A stretch of DNA of 64,000 nucleotides from NCBI GenBank assembly GCA_027625145.1, contig JAQBXK010000001.1:62001-126000 (forward strand), written 5' to 3'. Position 1 is the stretch's first letter. Each line of letters starts with the position of its first letter. This document shows, piece by piece, positions 10,599 through 23,271 of this stretch. This DNA comes from Pseudomonadota bacterium. Lineage in GTDB: Bacteria; Pseudomonadota; Alphaproteobacteria; Puniceispirillales; Marisalimonadaceae. The translations under genes and the position numbers were made by a program. The notes below the pieces were generated by a model that searched no databases, had not been told where the DNA came from, and was given only the letters and a program-made list of their open reading frames with translations.

Positions 10599-10682
10599 CT
10601 CCCTACGCTGGTTCTAGCCAGATCAGGTTATAAGGGTTAAATTCTCAGCAAGACGACCGTCGTGCACCCCCGGCAAAGGCCA
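10599..10682 (-). promoter_or_regulatory. TPP riboswitch (THI element) controlling thiY
   Basis: Read on the minus strand, the conserved THI-box blocks appear in order: GGGGTGC, a small hairpin (ACGAC/GTCGT), GCTGAGA (plus positions 10643-10649), ACCTGATCTGG (plus 10618-10628) and CCAGCGTAGGGA. Together they give the TPP aptamer. The terminal AGGGAG is seven bases from the thiY ATG and acts as its ribosome binding site, so ligand-stabilised pairing should hide it. This is a translational off-switch typical of Gram-negative bacteria. The ThiX permease gene lies upstream of the switch and would not be controlled by it unless another element exists. Confidence 0.93.
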
Positions 10683-10722
10683 TTTTTAACAATATAAAAA
10701 AAAAATCAACAATTATTTTAAA

Positions 10723-11448
10723 TTATTTCCACCAAACGTACTTACTAAGTATTTTATCTGTAATTCTATAAAGGGTTATAGTTATAAAAATTAAAATTAA
10801 TAAAGCAGCAAACATATTATCAGTTTGAAGTCTTGCATTACTATAAATCATAAATGAACCTAAGCCTGTGCTTCCTCCAATCCATTCACCTACTACTGCT
10901 CCTATAGGAGCAAAGCACGCTCCAACTCTTATGCCGGAACATAAACCTGGCAAAGAAGCAGGTATTTTAATTTTCCAAAAAATCTTAGATTTATTAAATC
11001 CTATAGTCTTGCCTGCATCAATTAATTCTTGAGGCACTTTGTTTAATGCGTCAGTAAAGTTAGATGTTATTGGAAAAAATACAATTAAAACACCAATGAC
11101 TATTTTGCTAATCATTCCATAACCAAGCCATAATATTAATAAAGGAGCTAACGCAAAAACAGGGATAGATTGACTTGCTAACAATATTGGCATTATCCAT
11201 AGCTTTAGTTTAGCAGAAGAGGATATTATTAACGCAGTGGCTATACCAATAAATGAACCTATGAAAAGAGATGCTAAAATTTCAATTAATGTGTAGGAAG
11301 CATGCTTTAGCAATTCTTCCCAATTATTATATATTGAGAGCATCACCTTTGAAGGTGGAGGTAGCATGAAAGGAGGGATTTTAAATATTGAACAGCTTAT
11401 TTCCCAAATAAGAAAGATAATTGCCGTTATAAATAAACCTCTTAACAT
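10723..11448 (-). CDS. thiX: ThiX-like ABC transporter permease
   Basis: The 241-residue integral membrane protein has six predicted helices and the EAA loop of binding-protein-dependent permeases ('VPQELIDAGKTIGFNKSKIFWKIKIPASLPG', given in part: DAGKTIG). It resembles SsuC/TauC/ThiX permeases; N-terminal 'PPFMLPPPSKV' is also typical. Beside ThiY it most likely forms the channel for a thiamine pyrimidine precursor. It precedes the riboswitch-thiY unit on the same strand, an order in which only thiY receives riboswitch control at translation. No ATP-binding subunit is encoded next to it. Confidence 0.85.
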   Translation of the reverse strand: MLRGLFITAIIFLIWEISCSIFKIPPFMLPPPSKVMLSIYNNWEELLKHASYTLIEILASLFIGSFIGIATALIISSSAKLKLWIMPILLASQSIPVFALAPLLILWLGYGMISKIVIGVLIVFFPITSNFTDALNKVPQELIDAGKTIGFNKSKIFWKIKIPASLPGLCSGIRVGACFAPIGAVVGEWIGGSTGLGSFMIYSNARLQTDNMFAALLILIFITITLYRITDKILSKYVWWK

Positions 11449-11505: not shown

Positions 11506-12630
11506 ATGCAGAATTATATATTTACTAGTGATATTTTTAAAGGTTCTCGATATGAAAAAGGTCATCCTTTGGATATGGATAGAGTTTGGCCAAGTGTAGA
11601 GCTTTTAAAGCTAACGGGTTGGGTGAATGATAATCAAATCATTAAAAATGGAGCTGCTAGTATTGAAGAGCTAATCCTTTATCATGATAAAGACTACGTT
11701 GAAGCTTTGCAAGAAGCAGAGATAAATCAATATCTTCCTGATATTTATAAAAAAAAATATAATATTGGTGTTGGAAATAACCCTATATTTAAAGAGGTTT
11801 TTTCTAGGCCAGCTTCTGCAGCTAAAGCTAGTATTAAGGCTATAGAAATGTTGGCAAACAATGATGCAAAGAGAATATTGAACTTTTCAGGGGGAACACA
11901 TCATGGAAGAAAATCTGAAGCTTATGGATTTTGTTTCTTAAATGACTGTGTTCTGGCTATTTTAAAGGCGATAGAGCTAGGTTTTTCAAATATTTTATAT
12001 GTAGATATTGACGCTCATCATTGTGATGGTGTTCAAGATGTATTTGTTGAACATGAAAATGTCACAGTGGTTTCTATTCATGAGAAAGATAGATGGCCTA
12101 AAACTGGTTTGGTTGAAGATTGTAAAACACATAATATAATGTGTTTTCCTGTTCCTGAAGGTTTCAATGATGATGAAATAAGTATTATTATTAAAAATGC
12201 TATTCTTCCATTAGGAAATTCTATTAAACCTGATCTTTTAATTATTCAGGCAGGTGCGGATATGCTTGACGGGGATCCGCAGTCTAGATTGTCTCTGACC
12301 AATAACGGTTATTGGAAAACTATAAGTGATTTATTAACCATCTGTAATACGTCTCTTACTTTAGGTGGAGGAGGGTATAATCCTTATTTAACAGCTAAAG
12401 CTTGGGCTGGGAATTGGGCTTTGTTAAATAACCATATTGAATGGCTTGATGATGAGATGCCTTTATCTTGTCAGAACTTATTAAAAAACCTTAAATGGAA
12501 TAATAGCAGAGTTAGAGATGGCATCCCGGATCATTGGCTTAAGTCATGGAGAGACCCTGTTTCTAAATTTATTGTTAGAGATGAAGTTTTATTTCTTCTG
12601 GATGAAGTTTTGAAAATTAAAAAAATATAA
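11506..12630 (+). CDS. histone deacetylase-like (AcuC-type) amidohydrolase
   Basis: A 374-residue zinc hydrolase of the HDAC/AcuC superfamily. Catalytic landmarks are H132-H133 in 'GGTHHGR', 'YGFCFLNDC' (140-148), zinc ligands Asp169 and His171 in 'DIDAHHCDG', the third ligand aspartate in 'GADMLDGDP', and 'LGGGGYN'. The family removes acetyl or other acyl groups from lysines or small amides; AcuC regulates acetyl-CoA synthetase. The length matches AcuC. It is transcribed divergently from thiX, and its stop codon overlaps the ATG of the DUF192 gene. Confidence 0.88.
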   Translation: MQNYIFTSDIFKGSRYEKGHPLDMDRVWPSVELLKLTGWVNDNQIIKNGAASIEELILYHDKDYVEALQEAEINQYLPDIYKKKYNIGVGNNPIFKEVFSRPASAAKASIKAIEMLANNDAKRILNFSGGTHHGRKSEAYGFCFLNDCVLAILKAIELGFSNILYVDIDAHHCDGVQDVFVEHENVTVVSIHEKDRWPKTGLVEDCKTHNIMCFPVPEGFNDDEISIIIKNAILPLGNSIKPDLLIIQAGADMLDGDPQSRLSLTNNGYWKTISDLLTICNTSLTLGGGGYNPYLTAKAWAGNWALLNNHIEWLDDEMPLSCQNLLKNLKWNNSRVRDGIPDHWLKSWRDPVSKFIVRDEVLFLLDEVLKIKKI

Positions 12631-13184: not shown

Positions 13185-13261
<77 letters not shown>

Positions 13262-13361
13262 ATTTAAGTGTTTGTTTTCATTAAACATTTATAGTTCTTA
13301 TCTTTCTACTTCATATCAAATGTAACCACTTGATCCACTATTGATCCAGTGAGGTTTAACT

Positions 13362-14331
13362 ATGGCGTCTATAATTAAGCGCAATGACAAGTGGTTTGTT
13401 CGAGTTAGAAAGCATGGACAGCCATCTCAATCTAAAACATTTACCATAAAGACGCTCAAAGATGGACTGTTATGCAAGAGCGGCAAATAGATCAAGGCCT
13501 TGTTGGGTGCGTTGATAAGTCTGTAACCTTAGTTGATTTACTTAAACGATACTTAAAAGAGGTAACCCCTCATAAAAAGAGCTGTGATAAAGAGACTTGG
13601 AGGATTAAGGCTTTGCTTAAGAGGTCTATATCAGGAGTTGGACTATCTAATTTAACCTCCACAATCATATTGAATTTTAAAACCTTAAGGCTTGTTGATG
13701 GCGCAAGAACCACAAGGTATCACTTGGCTTTAATAAGACATTGCCTTGAGTTTGCACGATTGGAGTGGGGTATTATCTACCTACTAACCCAGTAGATATG
13801 GTAGCCAAGCCAAAGCTTAATAAACCAAGAGATAGAAGGGTATCTGCAGACGATATTGACACATTAATGCATGCCCTTAGAGAAACTAAAGTTAGTTACT
13901 TAAAGCCGTTGATCTTAATTGCATTAGAAACAGGTCTTAGGCAGGGTGAGTTGATAAAGTTGTTGTGGGAAGATGTCGATTTAGATAGTAGGTTACTAAA
14001 GGTTAGAGACACTAAGAATGGAGAGGATAGGGTCATTCCCTTGTCAAACAAGTCTCTATCAATTCTTCAATCATTACCAAGGTTAAGAGAATCTGTGTTT
14101 AACGCAAGTCACTCGTCACTTCAAAACGCATGGAAGAGGCTAATAAAGAGATCGGATTTAGACGACCTCTACTTCCACGACCTAAGGCATGAGGCAATAT
14201 CAAGGTTTATTGAGCGAGGATTAACCATACCAGAATCTGCATCTATTAGCGGACATAAGGCTCAGTCTATGTTGCTTAGGTATGCACATCCTAATTTAGA
14301 TATAGTTAAGCAAAAGGTAGGTAATTTTTAG
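13362..14331 (+). pseudogene. tyrosine recombinase/integrase with two frameshifts
   Basis: Three frames must be joined to rebuild one integrase of about 320 residues. The N-terminal part starts at ATG 13362 (MASIIKRNDKWFVRVRKHG) and breaks after 'TFTIKT' near 13450; the middle (DAQRWTVMQERQ... to LEWG) runs to about 13770; the C-terminal catalytic part ends at 14331. The catalytic set is intact in the last piece: Arg in 'GLRQGEL', Lys in 'DTKNGED', H-D-L-R-H, G-H-K-A and the nucleophile in 'LLRYAHP'. It lies just downstream of tRNA-Pro, the usual place for a tRNA-targeting integrase. Two one- or few-base indels make a functional product unlikely unless they are sequencing errors. Confidence 0.85.
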
Positions 14332-14424
14332 GTACCATATTCTGGAATTTGATACCCCATGGGATTGATGAAATAGATCATTTCAAAAAATGGTTAAAGA
14401 CTTGTTGTTATTGTTGTTATTTTA
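14199..14424 (+). repeat. direct repeat copy 1: integrase 3' end plus tail
   Basis: The final 130 bases of the integrase gene and about 95 bases of following noncoding sequence recur at 17205-17431 in the same orientation, with only scattered substitutions and one single-base indel in a run of A. The coding part differs at a few residues (I to V, S to A), so the copies look like ends of two related integrases and not a recent exact duplication. The two copies bracket the DUF1800/DUF1501 pair. Confidence 0.9.
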
Positions 14425-15564
14425 GGTTTTAAAAAGCTTTTCAGTTAGGTCGGGAAGTTGTTCATTCCAAAATGCATGCTTTCTCATATAATTGAAATCA
14501 ACATCGAAACATGCCGCCATAGCAGAGCAGTAGACTGCTCTAGCGTCGATTGTAGCGTTGAGATACTGCCCTTCAAACAAAGCCTTTTTGGACAGACCAG
14601 GCCAGTCAGTATAAACCTGTGATTTCTTTACAAGGCCACCCGCCATTAAGATAGCAGTACCATACCCATGCTCGGTTCCATACCCACCGTTTTCTTCAAC
14701 TTTTCTTCCAAACTCAGTTAGAGTAACGATTAAAGTATCATCAAAGGTTTTACCTAAATTGTCTTTAAGCACCTTAACAATACCATCATACTTACTTAGT
14801 TTCTCACCATGTTCGCCATCAGTTCCTCCTTGAGCCGAGTGAGTGTCAAACCCATCCAAATCAAAAACTGCAATACGAGGGCCATCATTTGCCTTAAGTT
14901 GTTCAGCCGCAGTCTTTGCTAGTTTTAGAGGCTCTCTATCTTTCCAATTCGCTCTCAGCATTTCACGTGGTCGTGCATTAATTGACATCATTGCTTCATG
15001 AAGCGGAGTGCCTTCAACAAATGAGGATGTAACTTTTTCAAAAATCTTAGACGAAGGAAGACCCAAGGTCGTTGGAAAATAGTTGTCTGCCGTGATTTTA
15101 CCACGCAATAGAAGTGGCATTTGCAACGAAATTGCTAAACCATTAAGTTCAGCAGTATCAATGCCTCTTCCTAACCATCCGGTAGCCTCTGTGTAAGGGG
15201 TTGTGGCACCGGTTTCCATTTGATTTTGTCCTTCAAAATGGGATCTTTTTGTGTAAGGAATGTTGCTGCCATGGACAACAGTAGCTTGTCCAGTCTTCCA
15301 TAATGAAGCAAAAGTTTTAAGCCTCGGGTGAAGAGAAAAATTCCCATCAAGATCGATGGTCTTATTCACAAGGATGTTTGGTCTCAAAGAATTTAAAAGT
15401 CTATCTTTTACTGGTACAGCAGTTAATCCATCCATGCCTCCGCGGAGCATGATGATAACAAGGTTCTTCTTTTTTTGAGTTGCTGCACGTGCATTCCAAA
15501 TTGGATGACCAAGAAGACTAAGACTTGTCCCACCAAGGATGAAGAAACGTCTGGATAAAATCAT
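14422..15564 (-). CDS. DUF1501 family exported protein (sulfatase-like fold)
   Basis: About 380 residues. The N terminus 'SRRFFILGGTSLSLLG' with the twin arginine and a hydrophobic stretch suggests a Tat signal. 'VIIMLRGGMDGLTAV' (about residue 35), 'FDLDGFDTHSAQGG' and 'LTEFGRKVEENGGYGTEHGYG' are the DUF1501 hallmarks; the family resembles alkaline phosphatase/sulfatase folds. The start is ATG 15564, in an ATGA overlap with the DUF1800 stop. DUF1800-DUF1501 pairs are common and of unknown role, possibly cell-surface or secreted. The base composition is richer in G+C than the core genes, and the pair is bracketed by integrase remnants. Confidence 0.88.
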   Translation of the reverse strand: MILSRRFFILGGTSLSLLGHPIWNARAATQKKKNLVIIMLRGGMDGLTAVPVKDRLLNSLRPNILVNKTIDLDGNFSLHPRLKTFASLWKTGQATVVHGSNIPYTKRSHFEGQNQMETGATTPYTEATGWLGRGIDTAELNGLAISLQMPLLLRGKITADNYFPTTLGLPSSKIFEKVTSSFVEGTPLHEAMMSINARPREMLRANWKDREPLKLAKTAAEQLKANDGPRIAVFDLDGFDTHSAQGGTDGEHGEKLSKYDGIVKVLKDNLGKTFDDTLIVTLTEFGRKVEENGGYGTEHGYGTAILMAGGLVKKSQVYTDWPGLSKKALFEGQYLNATIDARAVYCSAMAACFDVDFNYMRKHAFWNEQLPDLTEKLFKT

Positions 15565-17048
15565 GCTGACACCATCCAATTACTTGGGAAAAGAGTTTGG
15601 ATTACGTTATATGGATGAAGTTCTTTGGCTTTAGGATCTTGTTGCCATCTATCTTTATCTAATGACAAATAATCGAGGACACGGTCCAGGTTATCAAAAT
15701 TTGATTGGAGCATATGTACAGGGGACCAATTTTGTGGGCCATGGCCACTACCACTCGATGAGAATTTCTTTGCAAAAACTATTCTCCTCAAAAGCAGTTC
15801 AGGTGATATCCAGTCAGCTGACAAATCTGACCAGCCATTAGGTTGAGTAGGGCGATAAGGGGACAGACCAATTTCCTTCAAATCCCATTTGACCCTATTC
15901 ATATGTTTTCTAGGCTTGGTAGAGAAATCGTGAATCATGTCCACGCTGGACAATGGCCAGTTTAGGTCGGCCATGGTTGCCATTTGCATAAGCCAAACTT
16001 CTGGATTTTGAAACTTATCAAACATACCTGTATATTCATAAGTCACTTCAAGCAAAGCTTTGTGGATTGTTGGCAAATCACCACCACTCTCATTCCAAGC
16101 TTTTAGAATTGGCTTCATCATTTCTTCAGTTGGGTGATCACAAATGAAGTGACGACAAAGCTTATGCGTGATGAAATTACTACAGGATGGATGTTCTGCA
16201 AGGTCATTAATAACATCAATAAGCTTGTTCTTTGGGGTTACCCCTTTCTGTTTATAAGCTTTGCCAAAAACTTTGTGTTCGCCTGGCTCGTGCTTATTTT
16301 GGTTGAACTTAACTTGGTTAGCATCGTGTCGCTTTTTTGTCCAAGGACATTCCCAGCCAGCCATAATATAAGACAATTCAATAACGTCTTTTTGAGAATA
16401 ACCAGCAGCAGGCCCTACGCTATGAAGTTCTAGTAATTCGCGAGCATGATTTTCATTTACCGATACTGGTTTCCCTTTTTTCTTTCGCCATTGACCATTT
16501 TTAGAATTCGGCCCAACACTGTCACTGTTATCAAGGTTCTTTATCATTGCAAAAGAGATTGTAGCGGACTTAAGTAAATTAGTGAAGTTTCCACAAAGAT
16601 TCTCACGAATTATTTCTCGTTGAAAAGCGCCTGTATTGAATGACGGCAATGAGCTCTTATCCAAAATTGCAAAGTGATTGGACCAAAACCACCAAAGCCT
16701 CTCAAACACTGGCGTTCCGCTATTTCGTGCTGCATGATGACGTATGTTGAGTTCAAGGCTCTCAAAATACTGCTCTCCTGTTGTGTATCTGAGTTTTTTT
16801 TCAGCCTGTTTTAAAGCTTGCCTATCATTCTTATAACGCTCTCGGATTTCATCTTCACCAAATCTATATTCTGCTCGCTTGTCTAATAAAAATTTTTCAG
16901 AAAACAAAGGGCCATCCCATGCCAATTTTGGCACAGAGTTGACCTGAGCTTGTGCCCAAGCAACAGGATCGCTGGGAACATCAGTATTAGGGCCTAGGCC
17001 AAAAGCAATTTTCCTGAAGTAATTTTTCTTGATCAAATTGGCACTCAC
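15561..17048 (-). CDS. DUF1800 family protein
   Basis: The 495-residue protein matches the DUF1800 family: an early 'AFGLGPNTD', then 'LWWFWSNHFAI' (about residue 118), 'FQREIIRENLCGNFTNLL', 'NENHARELLELHSVGP' (about residues 205-220, the strongest marker), 'FITHKLCRHFICD' and 'NPEVWLMQMA'. Function is unknown; the family is nearly always followed by DUF1501, as here, with the stop and next start overlapping. No clear signal peptide is seen at this start. It and its partner form the full cargo between the two integrase 3'-end repeats. Confidence 0.88.
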   Translation of the reverse strand: MSANLIKKNYFRKIAFGLGPNTDVPSDPVAWAQAQVNSVPKLAWDGPLFSEKFLLDKRAEYRFGEDEIRERYKNDRQALKQAEKKLRYTTGEQYFESLELNIRHHAARNSGTPVFERLWWFWSNHFAILDKSSLPSFNTGAFQREIIRENLCGNFTNLLKSATISFAMIKNLDNSDSVGPNSKNGQWRKKKGKPVSVNENHARELLELHSVGPAAGYSQKDVIELSYIMAGWECPWTKKRHDANQVKFNQNKHEPGEHKVFGKAYKQKGVTPKNKLIDVINDLAEHPSCSNFITHKLCRHFICDHPTEEMMKPILKAWNESGGDLPTIHKALLEVTYEYTGMFDKFQNPEVWLMQMATMADLNWPLSSVDMIHDFSTKPRKHMNRVKWDLKEIGLSPYRPTQPNGWSDLSADWISPELLLRRIVFAKKFSSSGSGHGPQNWSPVHMLQSNFDNLDRVLDYLSLDKDRWQQDPKAKELHPYNVIQTLFPSNWMVSA

Positions 17049-17204
17049 TATAATTTAACTCTAGCAATAAAATTAAATATCATTTTTTTTAAAAAGATTC
17101 AATTTTCTTATACTGGATAATGGTTAGGTTGAGAAAAACTTTTATTCATACAATATGCATCATTTGCAACTGAATTTTAGCAATAGCAACATTTAATGTA
17201 CCCC

Positions 17205-17431
17205 ATCAAGGTTTGTTGAGAGAGGATTAACCATACCGGAAGCTGCTTCTATTAGCGGACATAAGGCTCAGTCTATGTTGCTTAGGTATGCACATCCTAA
17301 TTTAGATATAGTTAAGCAAAAGGTAGGTAATTTTTAGGTACCATATTCTGGAATTTGATACCCCATGGGATTGATGAAATAGATCATTTCAAAAAAAGGG
17401 TTAAAGAGTTGTTGTTATTGACGTTATTTTA
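17205..17431 (+). repeat. direct repeat copy 2: orphan integrase 3' end
   Basis: This stretch encodes the last 43 or so integrase codons in frame (from S-R-F-V-E-R-G to K-V-G-N-F-stop at about 17337) with no upstream coding sequence, followed by the same noncoding tail seen after copy 1. It contains the G-H-K-A and L-L-R-Y-A-H-P motifs, including the catalytic tyrosine. It is the stump of a second integrase gene. The rest of the 17049-17568 interval holds only AT-rich sequence and the promoter side of the SDR gene. Confidence 0.9.
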
Positions 17432-17568: not shown

Positions 17569-18351
17569 ATGAGTATTTTGGGCGTCGAATTATTTAAAGG
17601 AGAACGGGCACTGGTTACCGGTGCTGCATCAAATATTGGGCGCTCGATTGCTGTAAGGCTTGCAGGCGAGGGGGCGGAAGTGACAATTACCGACGTTGAT
17701 AGTAGACGTCTTTCGCAGGTTGCTGATGAGGTGGCTAAAGTTGGTATGGTACCCCGCACACTTGTTGCAGACCTTTCGGACAAAGTGGGCTGGCGCACAG
17801 TTTGGGAGTTTGTAGAAGCCAATCCGCCTGCAATTTTTGTTCACTCTGCATGTCCACCACGACATGAAAAAGATACTCCGTTAAGTGTTTCTGAAGATAC
17901 CTTTGATGCCATGTTGAATACTAACTTACGATCTGGCTTTCTTTTAGGGCGTGAAGTTGCATCCGCCATGCGCCAAGATAAAGTAGCTGGACGAATTCTT
18001 TATGTAACATCGTTGCATGCGACTGAACCGAGAAATCTACCACACTACTCCGCGTCAAAAGCTGGTATGACAATGATGCTGAAAGAGCTTGCACGTGAAC
18101 TTGGGCCGTCAGGTGTTCGGGTAAATGGAATAGCGCCGGGCGCAATTCCAGGTGGAGGATTCTCCACTAGCGAGGATACGTTTCAGCCAAAACGGAAAAT
18201 TCCATTAGGAAGGTTTGGAAACGCAGATGATATTGCACGCTCAGCAATGGCAATTCTTTCAAATGATTTGATGGGCTATGTGACAGGGACAACATTAGTC
18301 GTCGATGGCGGGTTGCAGTTGTTTAACTGGATTGATTTGCCAAGTACCTAA
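17569..18351 (+). CDS. SDR-family oxidoreductase
   Basis: A 260-residue classical short-chain dehydrogenase: cofactor loop G-A-A-S-N-I-G (18-24), Ser148 in 'VTSLHA', Tyr160 and Lys164 in 'YSASK', and the C-terminal 'GTTLVVDGG'. The usual N-N-A-G after beta-4 is replaced by 'VHSACPP'. It would oxidise or reduce a hydroxyl/keto group with NAD(P). GAAGGA upstream supports the ATG. Codon use is more GC-rich than the flanking chromosomal genes, which fits transfer with the accessory region. The substrate is unknown. Confidence 0.88.
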   Translation: MSILGVELFKGERALVTGAASNIGRSIAVRLAGEGAEVTITDVDSRRLSQVADEVAKVGMVPRTLVADLSDKVGWRTVWEFVEANPPAIFVHSACPPRHEKDTPLSVSEDTFDAMLNTNLRSGFLLGREVASAMRQDKVAGRILYVTSLHATEPRNLPHYSASKAGMTMMLKELARELGPSGVRVNGIAPGAIPGGGFSTSEDTFQPKRKIPLGRFGNADDIARSAMAILSNDLMGYVTGTTLVVDGGLQLFNWIDLPST

Positions 18352-18563
18352 AGTGCTAGATTTTTTTTAGTCAAAGTATTGATTTTCAACCTAAGTCTTA
18401 TGACTTCTGCAAATAAAACAAGACTGGCGATAGGCCAGATTACTACAAATAGACATACATTTATCTCCTCGTAAGTAATACCTATTAATCCGCCAACATC
18501 GTATAAAAGCCTTACGCAAAAGTTAAATGTAATATCAATCCACTCTATTCCGCTATTAGCCAT
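18348..18563 (-). CDS. small two-helix membrane protein
   Basis: A 71-residue protein with hydrophobic stretches around 'FNFCVRLLYDVGGLIGI' and 'EINVCLFVVIWPIASLVLFAEVI', and a basic C-terminal tail. It converges with the SDR gene, sharing four bases at the stops. No family is recognised; the second segment looks like a real membrane helix, and GGAGAAAA lies upstream of the ATG. It is probably a true small gene. Confidence 0.5.
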   Translation of the reverse strand: MANSGIEWIDITFNFCVRLLYDVGGLIGITYEEINVCLFVVIWPIASLVLFAEVIRLRLKINTLTKKNLAL

Positions 18564-18606
18564 TTATTTTTCTCCAAATTTGATTTAAGTTTGTATTATA
18601 ATTATG

Positions 18607-18629
18607 ACTAAATCTTGTTATGATTTAGT
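18607..18629. repeat. perfect 8-bp inverted repeat with 7-base loop
   Basis: ACTAAATC and GATTTAGT flank TTGTTAT. It lies upstream of the small membrane protein in a stretch (18564-18843) with no convincing gene. It could be an operator, or the end of a transcript, because it is followed by AGTTTAAAC; there is no strong T run. Confidence 0.35.
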
Positions 18630-18843
18630 TTAAACAGATTATTGTTCTTATTACTCGTCTATATCAGGGAAAGCATTACTTCACCATTAATGAATAGGGC
18701 TAAAATAGCTTGCTTTAGAGCAAAAAAATCTTGTAAAAGTCTTGTAAATTTTTTGACAGCTTCTCCTCACAATAAAAACAACCTTCTGGTTGCAATCTGG
18801 TTGGAAAAGTACTTTTTTATTTTTTCACCATCAAGGCACTAGA

Positions 18844-19725
18844 TTAGCTCTTTTCAAGAAGGTCAATTAATTTTCTGACTTTCAGGGGCATAAACTTTTT
18901 GTCTGGGTAAACGACATAAACACCGCGCTCAGGGGCTGCAGGATATCCGGGCAAGATATGTATTAGATCGCCATCTTTGATCTCAGTTCTACAGCAGAAT
19001 TGAGGCAGAAGGGAAAGGCCGACCCCTTTTATACAGGCTTCTTTCATCATGCTGGCGCTATTTGCGTAGAGAGCTGGAGAAAGATTCAGCGATGCTCCTT
19101 TGCCATCCTGATCTGTGTATGACCATAGAGATGGGTTGGCAGCATTCGAATAACAGATAAAAGGCCAATTAGACAGGTCTTTTGGGTTAGATGGTTCACC
19201 TAATTTCTCAATTAGCCTTGGCGATGCGCACATCAGTAAGGGAAAATCAGAAATACGTTTGGCTATAAGCCCTGAGTCTTCGAGTATGCCAATCCTAACT
19301 ACCAGATCATAACCTTCTTCGATTAGGTGAACACGCTTATCGTCAAAATCGACATCGAGAATTACATCTGGATAGAGCGCAGCAAATTTTGCCATCGGTT
19401 TAGCCAGAAACAACTCGCCATAGGACATCGGGACATTGATCTTTAATCTACCTTTCGGCGTGGACTGTTCATTATCTAGTTCCTCGAGCACTTCATTGAG
19501 ATGCTCCTCACTTTGTTTCACTTCAGCATTTATCTTTAGTGCAGCATTTGTAGGGGTGACCGTCCTCGTTGTGCGATGAAATAGGCGCAGTTTCATCTTT
19601 CTTTCAAGCATCTTGACATGCTTACCCACTGCAGCGCCTGACATATCTAATTTTCGTGCAGCCTTAGTGAAACTGCCCTCCTGAATAATTACTTTAAGGA
19701 CATGAAAGGATGGATGAACAAACAT
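18844..19725 (-). CDS. LysR-family transcriptional regulator
   Basis: The 293-residue protein has an N-terminal winged helix-turn-helix (residues about 1-60; 'VIIQEGSFTKAARKLDMSGAAVGKHVKMLE') followed by a LysR substrate-binding domain ('GRLKINVPMSYGELFLAKPM', 'YDLVVRIGILEDSGLIAKRI', 'GVGLSLLPQF'). It is divergent from the DoxX-azoreductase-pirin genes with a 100-base intergenic region, the standard arrangement for a LysR activator of the neighbouring genes. The likely signal is a quinone or electrophile, by analogy with similar clusters; this is inference. Confidence 0.92.
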   Translation of the reverse strand: MFVHPSFHVLKVIIQEGSFTKAARKLDMSGAAVGKHVKMLERKMKLRLFHRTTRTVTPTNAALKINAEVKQSEEHLNEVLEELDNEQSTPKGRLKINVPMSYGELFLAKPMAKFAALYPDVILDVDFDDKRVHLIEEGYDLVVRIGILEDSGLIAKRISDFPLLMCASPRLIEKLGEPSNPKDLSNWPFICYSNAANPSLWSYTDQDGKGASLNLSPALYANSASMMKEACIKGVGLSLLPQFCCRTEIKDGDLIHILPGYPAAPERGVYVVYPDKKFMPLKVRKLIDLLEKS

Positions 19726-19826
19726 ATTATAAACTAAAAATTTATTATCATTAAACTTAAGTGATCTTTATAAAAATATTAATTACATTATATTCTCTAT
19801 TAGTCAACACACTAATGGAGAAACCA

Positions 19827-20270
19827 ATGTCAAATTCAACATCATATTCAATTGAGCAATCATGGGGGCTTAGCCTCTTGCGTATTCATCTTGGTGTCAT
19901 TCTGCTTGCTCATGGATGGCTAAAAATTTCTGTTTTCACAATAGCTGGAACTGTTGGATATTTTGCTAGCCTCGGCCTACCCAGCATTTTTGCTTATCTC
20001 ATTATTTTTGGAGAAGTTGCAGGCGGCATCGCCCTGATCCTTGGAATACAGACACGCCTTGCCGCGTTCTTTTCAGTGCCGGTCTTACTTGGAGCAACTT
20101 TTTTTCACTTGGATAATGGCTGGCTATTTTCTGCTGATGGAGGTGGCTGGGAGTTTCCAGCATCGCTGACCATCATTGCAATTGCTGTTGCTTTAATGGG
20201 CTCGGGGAAAAGGCTTCAAGTAAATTTCAATCCCTTAGATACTTATCTGCCTAAGCAAATGCGGGGCTGA
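19827..20270 (+). CDS. DoxX-family membrane protein
   Basis: About 147 residues with four membrane helices. DoxX markers: 'SLLRIHLGVILLAHGWLKI' at the N terminus, 'FGEVAGGIALILGIQTRLAAF' in the middle and a 'DGGGWEF' loop. I place the start at ATG 19827 because GGAG lies six bases before it; longer frames start at 19815 or 19761. DoxX proteins often accompany azoreductase or pirin genes in oxidative/quinone stress clusters. It is divergent from the LysR gene. Confidence 0.88.
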   Translation: MSNSTSYSIEQSWGLSLLRIHLGVILLAHGWLKISVFTIAGTVGYFASLGLPSIFAYLIIFGEVAGGIALILGIQTRLAAFFSVPVLLGATFFHLDNGWLFSADGGGWEFPASLTIIAIAVALMGSGKRLQVNFNPLDTYLPKQMRG

Positions 20271-20346
20271 GCCTTAACACATAATTTGGGACGGGTTTCG
20301 TTCATATCCCTCCATATCCAGTCATTCTAAATAGGAGTATAAAACA

Positions 20347-20988
20347 ATGACCAATCTACTTATTCTTGAAACATCTGCACGCAGTTCTTCAATCTCAACA
20401 GCGCTCGCTCATGAATTTATTGAAAAACTTGCCTTGAATGCTGTTGAGCTAAATCTCAAGACTCGTAATCTTAATTCTGATCAATTACAAAACCTTGATG
20501 AAGAGATGACAACTGCCCTCCGTGCTGGTGTAAAAAATCCGACATAATTACAAGCTAAAACCATAGCGCAATCTGATGCAATGATTGGTGAGATTGACGC
20601 TGCAGACATAGTCCTCATAGCTGCTCCCATGCATAATTTTACCATTTCCGCCCAGTTGCGTACATATATCGACTACATCACCCGACCCGGAAAAACTTTT
20701 GGTTACACAGAAGCAGGCCCGAAAGGTCTTCTTGTTGATAGGCCTGTTTATATCATCTCGACGCGTGGCGGCCAGTATGGTGATGGGGCACCTGACAAAC
20801 CTAACCCTTACGATTTTCAGTCTAGTTATCTTCGCCACATCCTTAGTTTCATCGGCCTCACATCGGTTGAAGTCATTGCCGCTAATGGGATGGATATGGG
20901 AGATAAGCCTCAGGCTGAAGGTCTTGCTGCGGCCCGCACAAAGATTGATGCTATTGTTAAAGCCAAAGTAACTGAACTAGCAGCTTAA
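20347..20988 (+). pseudogene. FMN-dependent NADH azoreductase (AcpD-like) with in-frame stop
   Basis: The frame from ATG 20347 to 20988 reads through as a normal azoreductase of about 213 residues apart from one TAA at 20545-20547 (codon 67). Before the stop: 'LLILETSARSSSISTALAHEF', the flavodoxin-like FMN loop. After it: 'ADIVLIAAPMHNFTISAQLRTYIDYI' and 'ISTRGGQYG', typical of AcpD/AzoR. A single C-to-T change (CAA to TAA) would explain the lesion. A downstream ATG at 20581 could start a C-terminal fragment, but this would lack the FMN phosphate loop. Its neighbours are DoxX and pirin. Confidence 0.85.
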
Positions 20989-21011
20989 TTTAAGATTATA
21001 GGAGATAAATC

Positions 21012-21716
21012 ATGATTACACGTTACGCATTTGCAGACCTTGGTGGTGCTAATCACGGATGGCTTAATGCCAAGCATCATTTTAGCTTTGCTAATTACTA
21101 TGATCCACAGAAGCTCAGCTATGGTGAATTAATGGTTATAAATGATGATATAATCGCACCTCATACAGGTTTTGATACACACTCTCATAGTGATATGGAA
21201 ATCATAACTTATGTGCGTAAAGGAGCAATTACACATAAAGATAATAAAGGGAATGAAGGTAGAACTACTGCTGGAAATATTCAGGTTATGAGTGCTGGGA
21301 CTGGAATATTACATTCTGAATATAATTTAGAAGATGAAGAAACAAATATTTACCAAATTTGGATAAAACCAAAAACAACAGGCATTAAACCTGACTGGGA
21401 TATGGCTGAATTTCCAAAAAAACCAGTTACAAAATATTTGCCACTACTAGTATCTGGAGATAAAAAAGCGCCATTAAATATCAATCAAGATGCTAGAATT
21501 TATGCTGGACGAATTAATAAAGGAGATGAGATAACTCACAATATTATTGGTAAAGCATATTTATTAATTGCTGAGGGAGAAGCAATGGTCAATCACCTTC
21601 ATGCAAAAAAGGGTGACGGCATAGCAATAACTGATGAGGTCGCTATAACTTTAAAGGCAAAGACTGAGGCTGAATTACTGATTATTGAAGTTCCAGGCAT
21701 TTCAGATGCCAGATAA
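21012..21716 (+). CDS. pirin-family protein (quercetinase-like cupin)
   Basis: The 234-residue protein carries the pirin N-terminal cupin: His57 and His59 ('FDTHSHSDMEI'), His101 and Glu103 ('GTGILHSEYN'), the metal site of YhaK-type pirins, with 'EGRTTAGNIQVMSAGTG' before it. The family includes quercetin dioxygenases and redox sensors. It follows the azoreductase gene with a GGAGA ribosome site, and a hairpin terminator stands after the stop. The first 100 bases are richer in G+C than the remainder, which looks like the AT-rich host genes. Confidence 0.92.
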   Translation: MITRYAFADLGGANHGWLNAKHHFSFANYYDPQKLSYGELMVINDDIIAPHTGFDTHSHSDMEIITYVRKGAITHKDNKGNEGRTTAGNIQVMSAGTGILHSEYNLEDEETNIYQIWIKPKTTGIKPDWDMAEFPKKPVTKYLPLLVSGDKKAPLNINQDARIYAGRINKGDEITHNIIGKAYLLIAEGEAMVNHLHAKKGDGIAITDEVAITLKAKTEAELLIIEVPGISDAR

Positions 21717-22494: not shown

Positions 22495-23271
22495 TTATTC
22501 CCAGTTTGGTTTTCTTTTTTCTAAAAAAGCTTTAAGTCCTTCTTGTGCATCTGGTGTCATTGCTACATTGCAAAAATCTTCGACTGCATTTGCAACTCCT
22601 CTTCTATAATCAAGATCGTTAGTGCGCATAAAGGCAGCTCTTCCTAATCTAATAGCAGTAGGAGATTTTTTAGAAAATACACCAGCGACTTTTCTTGCTT
22701 CGTCTAACACATTAGCTTTTGGAACCTTCTTATTAATTAAACCCATTGATAATGCTTCATCTGCATCAAATGTACGACCACTAAAAAGTAAATCAAAAGC
22801 ACGATAGCGACCAATGATTTTTGGTAAATGATTAAAATGAATTGCAGGTAGTAAGCCTAAATCAATTTCAGGATATCCAAATGAAGCTTTGTCAGAAGCA
22901 ATAATAATATCGCATGAAATTGCTAATGTCATTCCTCCACCACGTGCAGCGCCATCTATAACAGCAATTGTAGGTTTATCCATCTTATATTGCGTGTCCC
23001 AAAGTTCTATATATAGCAATTCAAGAAATTTTCTAACTTCTAATATTGGTTTGTTTATCAAAATATCTAGATCCAGACCGGCACAAAATATATTTGGTAT
23101 AGAGCTACTTATCATTACAGCTAGCACATCTTTTTTATTATTTACTTCTTTTAAAGTAATTAAAATTTCATTGAGAAAATCTACGCTGAAAGCATTTATT
23201 GGTGAACGTTTTAAACGAATATCAGCTATTGAATTTTCAATGGCAAGATCTATGTATTTCTTTTTATTCAT
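22495..23271 (-). CDS. enoyl-CoA hydratase/isomerase family protein
   Basis: A 258-residue crotonase-fold protein: 'IRLKRSPINAFSVDFLNEI' (about 18-36), 'FCAGLDLDILINKP' (oxyanion-hole loop near residue 60), 'KPTIAVIDGAARGGGMTLAISCDIIIAS' (second oxyanion loop, about 98-125) and 'PEIDLGLLP'. It probably hydrates or isomerises an enoyl-CoA or related thioester. It lies on the opposite strand to the thiolase, ligase and second hydratase genes but in the same neighbourhood. The exact reaction in this broad family cannot be named. Confidence 0.88.
   Translation of the reverse strand: MNKKKYIDLAIENSIADIRLKRSPINAFSVDFLNEILITLKEVNNKKDVLAVMISSSIPNIFCAGLDLDILINKPILEVRKFLELLYIELWDTQYKMDKPTIAVIDGAARGGGMTLAISCDIIIASDKASFGYPEIDLGLLPAIHFNHLPKIIGRYRAFDLLFSGRTFDADEALSMGLINKKVPKANVLDEARKVAGVFSKKSPTAIRLGRAAFMRTNDLDYRRGVANAVEDFCNVAMTPDAQEGLKAFLEKRKPNWE

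Follow-up and report, generated by a model that had tools for sequence, protein, structure and literature searches.

The 64-kb stretch of DNA analysed here (hereafter the window) carries, behind its tRNA-Pro(TGG) gene, what is probably a genomic island of two layers in a SAR116-type alphaproteobacterium. At the start of each layer stands the 3' end of one type of tyrosine integrase gene, called here int A, prolonged by a noncoding tail, and cargo would be stacked or replaced by recombination. The segment made of integrase end and tail recombines and marks the border between the integration module and the cargo, as judged from the mosaic structure of stumps and tails, from a long identical run shared by the two copies of the window and from the independent change of cargo and integration modules among relatives.

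The two copies lie at 14199-14424 and 17205-17431 in the same orientation; they are 226 nt long, 96% identical and spaced by 3006 nt. A search of the genome itself with copy 1 finds 14199-14424 at 100% identity and, at 96% (E 1e-100), 17205-17431. This is well beyond chance and establishes the direct repeat of integrase 3' end and noncoding tail reported in a first-pass annotation of this DNA. The coding part stops at 14331 in copy 1 and at 17337 in copy 2. No integrase lies upstream of copy 2, a 5'-truncated stump with about 43 codons and the same kind of noncoding tail as copy 1; comparison with relatives indicates that this second tail runs about 30 nt beyond the end first annotated, to about 17460. 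The encoded residues differ slightly, in agreement with the earlier view that the copies are the ends of related integrases. As that annotation had also noticed, the repeats enclose exactly two genes, DUF1501 and DUF1800, both on the minus strand, and a check by open reading frames (ORFs) and Pfam reveals nothing else between them. The stop codon of DUF1501 falls within the final three bases of copy 1.

Copies of the integrase end and tail in the order

The search for further copies covered 136 genomes of the SAR116 order, most of which are incomplete metagenome or single-cell assemblies; the window genome (G000) is itself in 83 contigs. It led to eight copies of the stump and tail in four genomes, at tRNA-Pro, tRNA-Gly and tRNA-Val islands. 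The cargo starts at the tail in all eight, across these three different tRNAs, so the tail does mark cargo boundaries, as the first-pass annotation had suggested checking in relatives. Unrelated cargo follows the border from one genome and one tRNA to another, and the integration module preceding the border varies too: int A at tRNA-Pro, another integrase (int B) at tRNA-Val and no intact int A at tRNA-Gly.

At the same tRNA-Pro, contig G044:C29 carries an intact int A of 324 aa, then the tail and then a different cargo, whose first gene encodes a short protein with a twin-arginine-like N-terminus. In G044:C86 and G096:C55, an intact int B lies behind a tRNA-Val-like gene, with the end of int A and the tail in place of the last codons of int B. 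These two int B are 95% identical, while the cargo behind the shared graft differs, being metal-resistance-like in G044:C86 and an enoyl-CoA hydratase gene in G096:C55; the stumps and tails of these two tRNA-Val loci are recombinant. In G096 (locus L090), tRNA-Val, int B, tail, enoyl-CoA hydratase gene, stump with tail and more cargo follow one another. This is an independent second case of bracketed cargo, at another tRNA than in the window. Finally, a stump and tail adjoin tRNA-Gly in G000:C45 (L009), which is a third, more distant copy in the window genome, and in G025:C7; arm-like repeats are present there and a full int A is not. Other int B relatives at tRNA-Val have different 3' ends, without the tail. 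The int B elements, which belong to the same integrase family, are ordinary tRNA islands. One apparently complete int B island of 6.4 kb was seen at tRNA-Val in G007:C8 (L140, 4910-11396), with a 67-nt direct repeat of its attachment (att) site.

Among the eight copies, two types of sequence (P and Q) can be told apart, and mosaics of both occur. The coding end of L055 matches type Q at 56 of 62 positions (38 of 62 for P), whereas its proximal tail matches type P at 51 of 52 (35 of 51 for Q); L090a switches from P to Q inside the tail. In the window, all 10 differences between the copies lie outside a single run of 143 identical nt (P=0.0003 under random placement), the flanks of which diverge by about 11%. 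The modules before the tail and the cargo after it change independently, through crossovers in the shared segment.

Conservation is highest in the tail's distal 45 nt, with a mean pairwise identity of 90%; the coding end reaches 74% and the proximal tail 75%. The cargo border falls at two positions, either directly after TTATTTTA (3 copies) or about 30 nt further (5 copies). The first cargo gene faces the tail in the three TTATTTTA-ending copies and reads away from it in the five longer ones, an 8/8 association that is suggestive only and in which the first cargo gene of L055 was judged by eye from a truncated MerR-like frame. The tail was also considered as a sigma-70 promoter or an intrinsic terminator, both of which were rejected, the scan being near the shuffled background.

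Layout and limits of the tRNA-Pro island

The features of the island are the following.

13185..13261, plus strand: tRNA-Pro(TGG), island anchor (ARAGORN), 97-100% identical in relatives
13321..13354, plus strand: arm-like repeats TTGATCCA between the tRNA and the integrase start, presumed from their sequence to be integrase binding sites
13363..14331, plus strand: int A, frameshifted tyrosine integrase pseudogene (Pfam Phage_integrase, E 2e-27)
14199..14424, plus strand: repeat copy 1, integrase 3' end and tail (own-genome search)
14332..14424, plus strand: noncoding tail of copy 1, of which the distal 44 nt (14381-14424) are the most conserved portion
14422..15579, minus strand: DUF1501 protein gene, cargo (Pfam PF07394, E 1e-24)
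15561..17048, minus strand: DUF1800 protein gene, cargo (Pfam PF08811, E 1e-76)
17205..17431, plus strand: repeat copy 2, int A stump (17205-17337) and tail (17338-17431, to about 17460 in relatives)
17569..21716, no strand given: older cargo behind copy 2, namely SDR, LysR regulator, small ORF, flavodoxin-fold protein and pirin (Pfam)
22495..23271, minus strand: enoyl-CoA hydratase, right limit of the foreign segment, syntenic after tRNA-Pro in relatives

The int A gene begins 100 bp behind tRNA-Pro(TGG); its frame is broken by frameshifts and split over the ORFs 13472-13795 and 13765-14331. The arm-like repeats TTGATCCA are conserved in G044 and G017 and partly in G040. The genes left of tRNA-Pro are conserved in relatives, in which the enoyl-CoA hydratase gene comes about 1-5 kb after the tRNA. 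Owing to this synteny, with which the GC content agrees, the foreign segment of the window is taken to extend over about 13.26-22.4 kb. Most of its ORFs have a GC content of 0.38-0.47 (0.44-0.47 for most of those in the older cargo), with pirin at 0.35, against about 0.30 in the host. By its tyrosine integrase directly behind tRNA-Pro and its foreign GC composition, the segment behaves as a tRNA island.

The DUF pair appears to be ordinary passenger cargo. DUF1800 has homologues of 31-57% identity in 55 further genomes of the order, and the four genomes with the repeat are not among these. A repeat unit specific to these genes was therefore rejected, since the homologues are widespread without the repeat. 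This bears on the cassette-like unit bounded by the integrase tail that the first-pass annotation had envisaged: its boundary holds, as the tail marks the start of the cargo, but it is not specific to the DUF pair.

Outside the island, a TPP-riboswitch-like sequence is found at 10600-10700 of the window, ahead of thiamine-precursor transporter genes; the orthologous site of G044 is an Rfam TPP match.

Possible origins of the two layers

In the mechanism that we propose, the integration module would consist of the tRNA core, the arm sites and the integrase, and the tail would form its border with the cargo. A related element bearing the DUF pair would have been added in front of an older element, from which deletions would have removed the attachment site and the 5' portion of the integrase gene. 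Homologous exchange across the integrase-end/tail segment, over about 100-225 bp, could leave cargo stacked between direct repeats or replace it, and such exchange may either have produced the stack of the window or have homogenised it later. The stacking of the DUF-pair element before an older, decayed one is the simplest history for the window. Different loci have recombined within the shared segment, which makes homologous recombination a route of cargo exchange no less important than site-specific insertion in series. As the integrase of the window is dead, the layer would now be fixed, barring a RecA loop-out between the repeats. The stepwise insertion at tRNA-Pro leaving integrase stumps, put forward in the first-pass annotation, is in keeping with the related integrase ends, but it requires a subsequent deletion because no tRNA-Pro att repeat is left in the window.

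Several points weigh against this history. No att duplicate of the tRNA-Pro 3' end was found in the 64-kb window, either between the layers or downstream, so that the accretion step itself and the exact order of events have to be inferred; lacking a duplicated tRNA 3' end at its far border, the island is decayed or unusual. The stumps are always short (<30% of the gene), which random deletion predicts poorly. The sample is small (eight copies from four genomes), G096 is 5% contaminated and may include this contig through mis-binning, and L009 and L056 possibly descend from a single event.

Homologous recombination alone could also have built the arrangement, by a single crossover in the int A end and tail with incoming DNA (a circle or a fragment) that bore the stump, the tail and the DUF pair, and with no serial site-specific insertion at tRNA-Pro. 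We hold this to be a possible but clearly less probable origin. It would account for the recombinant stumps and tails, for the homogenised 143-nt tract and for the lack of any remaining att repeat; however, it still presupposes a donor whose cargo end was already flanked by a truncated stump, and no circular donor, phage or plasmid with the segment was found. The search for viral or plasmid carriers of int A, of the tail or of a 105-bp block described below yielded only one integrase, 34% identical, in IMG/VR. It is unlikely that the tail is the recombination site of a site-specific cassette system, whose integrase would capture and express units of tail and cargo in the fashion of integrons. 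The higher conservation of the distal 45 nt relative to the coding end (90% vs 74%) and the two border positions that track the orientation of the first gene would fit such a system. However, the 5' ends of the stumps vary among loci (about residues 232-301 of 324), and the units therefore have no fixed left end; furthermore, the integrase of the window is broken, no excised form was seen and the promoter scan is at background. Somewhat less doubtful, though still unlikely, is the idea that the conserved tail, chiefly in its distal 45 nt, acts as a cis-element (for instance for recombination, packaging or expression) and turns the integrase end into a dedicated cargo slot, one among several in SAR116 tRNA islands, alongside the 105-bp block of tRNA-Ser, tRNA-Met and tRNA-Arg islands.

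The prophage e14 inserts in icd and carries a replacement 3' end of the gene. In the same way, an element bringing its own integrase 3' end could have inserted into a resident integrase gene, the stump being the displaced original end. The geometry agrees, with a completed gene on the left and a displaced 3' fragment on the right, but the stump starts vary by locus, the copies of the window diverge at their 5' start, where a common core should be identical, and Pfam reveals no recombinase in the cargo. Such an e14-like insertion is disfavoured and appears highly improbable. There is also very little chance that the repeat is an artefact joining two loci of a draft assembly: a perfect identity of 143 nt is near common k-mer limits and the genome is fragmented, but the flanks of this run are diverged, L090 has the same architecture with far more diverged copies and the GC content is even over the segment.

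The two-layer tRNA-Pro island remains the reading that we favour. The SAR116 lineage is abundant in the ocean and has small genomes, and little has been described of how it gains accessory genes. Should integrase ends and tails recur as junctions between modules and cargo, they could serve as a search handle for cargo slots in fragmentary ocean genomes, and this would account for orphan integrase stumps that annotation usually discards.

Known systems and other repeats of tRNA islands

The statement of the first-pass annotation that no unit of this form is described was too strong, since tandem accretion at tRNA/tmRNA genes with loss of integrases has been reported: elements are stacked at one tRNA, the older integrase being lost (PMC5704250), and in Dehalococcoides, multiple islands are found at one RNA gene (ssrA), with separate integration and cargo modules (PMC3146451). 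Tandem accretion combined with modular exchange of tRNA genomic islands is the closest known situation. As in the tandem accretion of integrative and conjugative, integrative and mobilizable or cis-mobilizable elements, the window shows a stack at one tRNA, a decayed older layer without integrase and cargo borders near the integration module; both the window and L090 have traces of two related integrases, one behind the other at the same locus. The window differs in what lies between its layers, namely the 3' end of an integrase gene and its tail, with no att sites kept, and in its recombinant border. Its distinctive points are the nature of the surviving border, where the end of an integrase gene and its conserved tail stand instead of an att repeat, and the recombination of this border.

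Tycheposons, said to have been described by Hackl et al. in 2023, are defined by a complete tRNA gene at one end and a partial tRNA at the other. They share with the island a tRNA anchor, a tyrosine recombinase, variable cargo and streamlined marine bacterial hosts, and the G000:C45 island even has a full-length tRNA-Gly at both ends; the window differs by its single, unduplicated tRNA-Pro. The tycheposon concept was applied to Methylophilaceae, and additive flexible genomic islands have repeated tRNA tails (PMC10872708). The latter resemble the window by their serial cargo units beside a tRNA with short direct repeats between them, but their repeat is a tRNA 3' end whereas that of the window is an integrase end and tail. 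As in integrons, an integrase lies beside cargo units parted by a repeat; however, int A is a phage-type tRNA integrase (Pfam Phage_integrase scan), the repeat includes coding sequence, attC is not demonstrated and the varying left ends of the stumps give no repeat of fixed extent per cassette. Unlike those of composite transposons or insertion sequences, the repeats of the window are 226-nt gene ends and not complete mobile elements. An inverted-repeat search of the window listed no inverted repeats at the borders.

A conserved noncoding block of about 105 bp (GGGGTTACTGCACCCTTTTCCTAATCAAC...TTGACC...GGGTTCAATGATGGG) follows tRNA-Ser in several genomes, in same-strand arrays. It is also found in tRNA-Met and tRNA-Arg islands and recurs in one orientation between groups of 1-7 genes (L122, L171-L179, L182, L185 and L187; in the window genome, L173 at 10757-10861 and 12337-12441, and L174). 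A query made of block and stump matched 54 of the 136 genomes. Gene groups running from block to block are common to different genomes and tRNA islands, with about 90-99.8% identity and homology borders at the blocks. These arrays look cassette-like, and the block as delimiter of shared gene cassettes looks a stronger lead than the integrase tail; they would constitute a testable cassette-like system. The block has no match in Rfam, and its RNA fold, with one compensatory pair in 28, receives no covariation support. No likeness is claimed between the int A tail and the terminal part of the block (Smith-Waterman score 29 vs 19.9 +/- 3.5 shuffled, P about 0.03 post hoc).

Isolated 3' stumps of another integrase, int C, about 46 codons long, lie directly behind the block and start at about residues 282-284 of 329 (L122 4316-4453 and 14614-14751, L123 9941-10078, L124 8954-9085, L180 3558-3701). 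Their start was dropped as a fixed boundary, because the common upstream block makes a single ancestral junction probable. The stop-codon region of int C, AGGTTATGAGCCTGAC, is the reverse complement of the tRNA-Met anticodon arm (L131/L133/L183), which suggests that the attachment core of int C overlaps the integrase 3' end.

In the window's own genome, the G000:C45 island holds a primase-like (D5) 3' end with a noncoding tail that is repeated on the same strand (L009, 11160-11443 and 15680-17343; 70% over 314 nt). These repeats surround ABC transporter, TetR and SDR genes, in the same pattern as the integrase-tail bracket.

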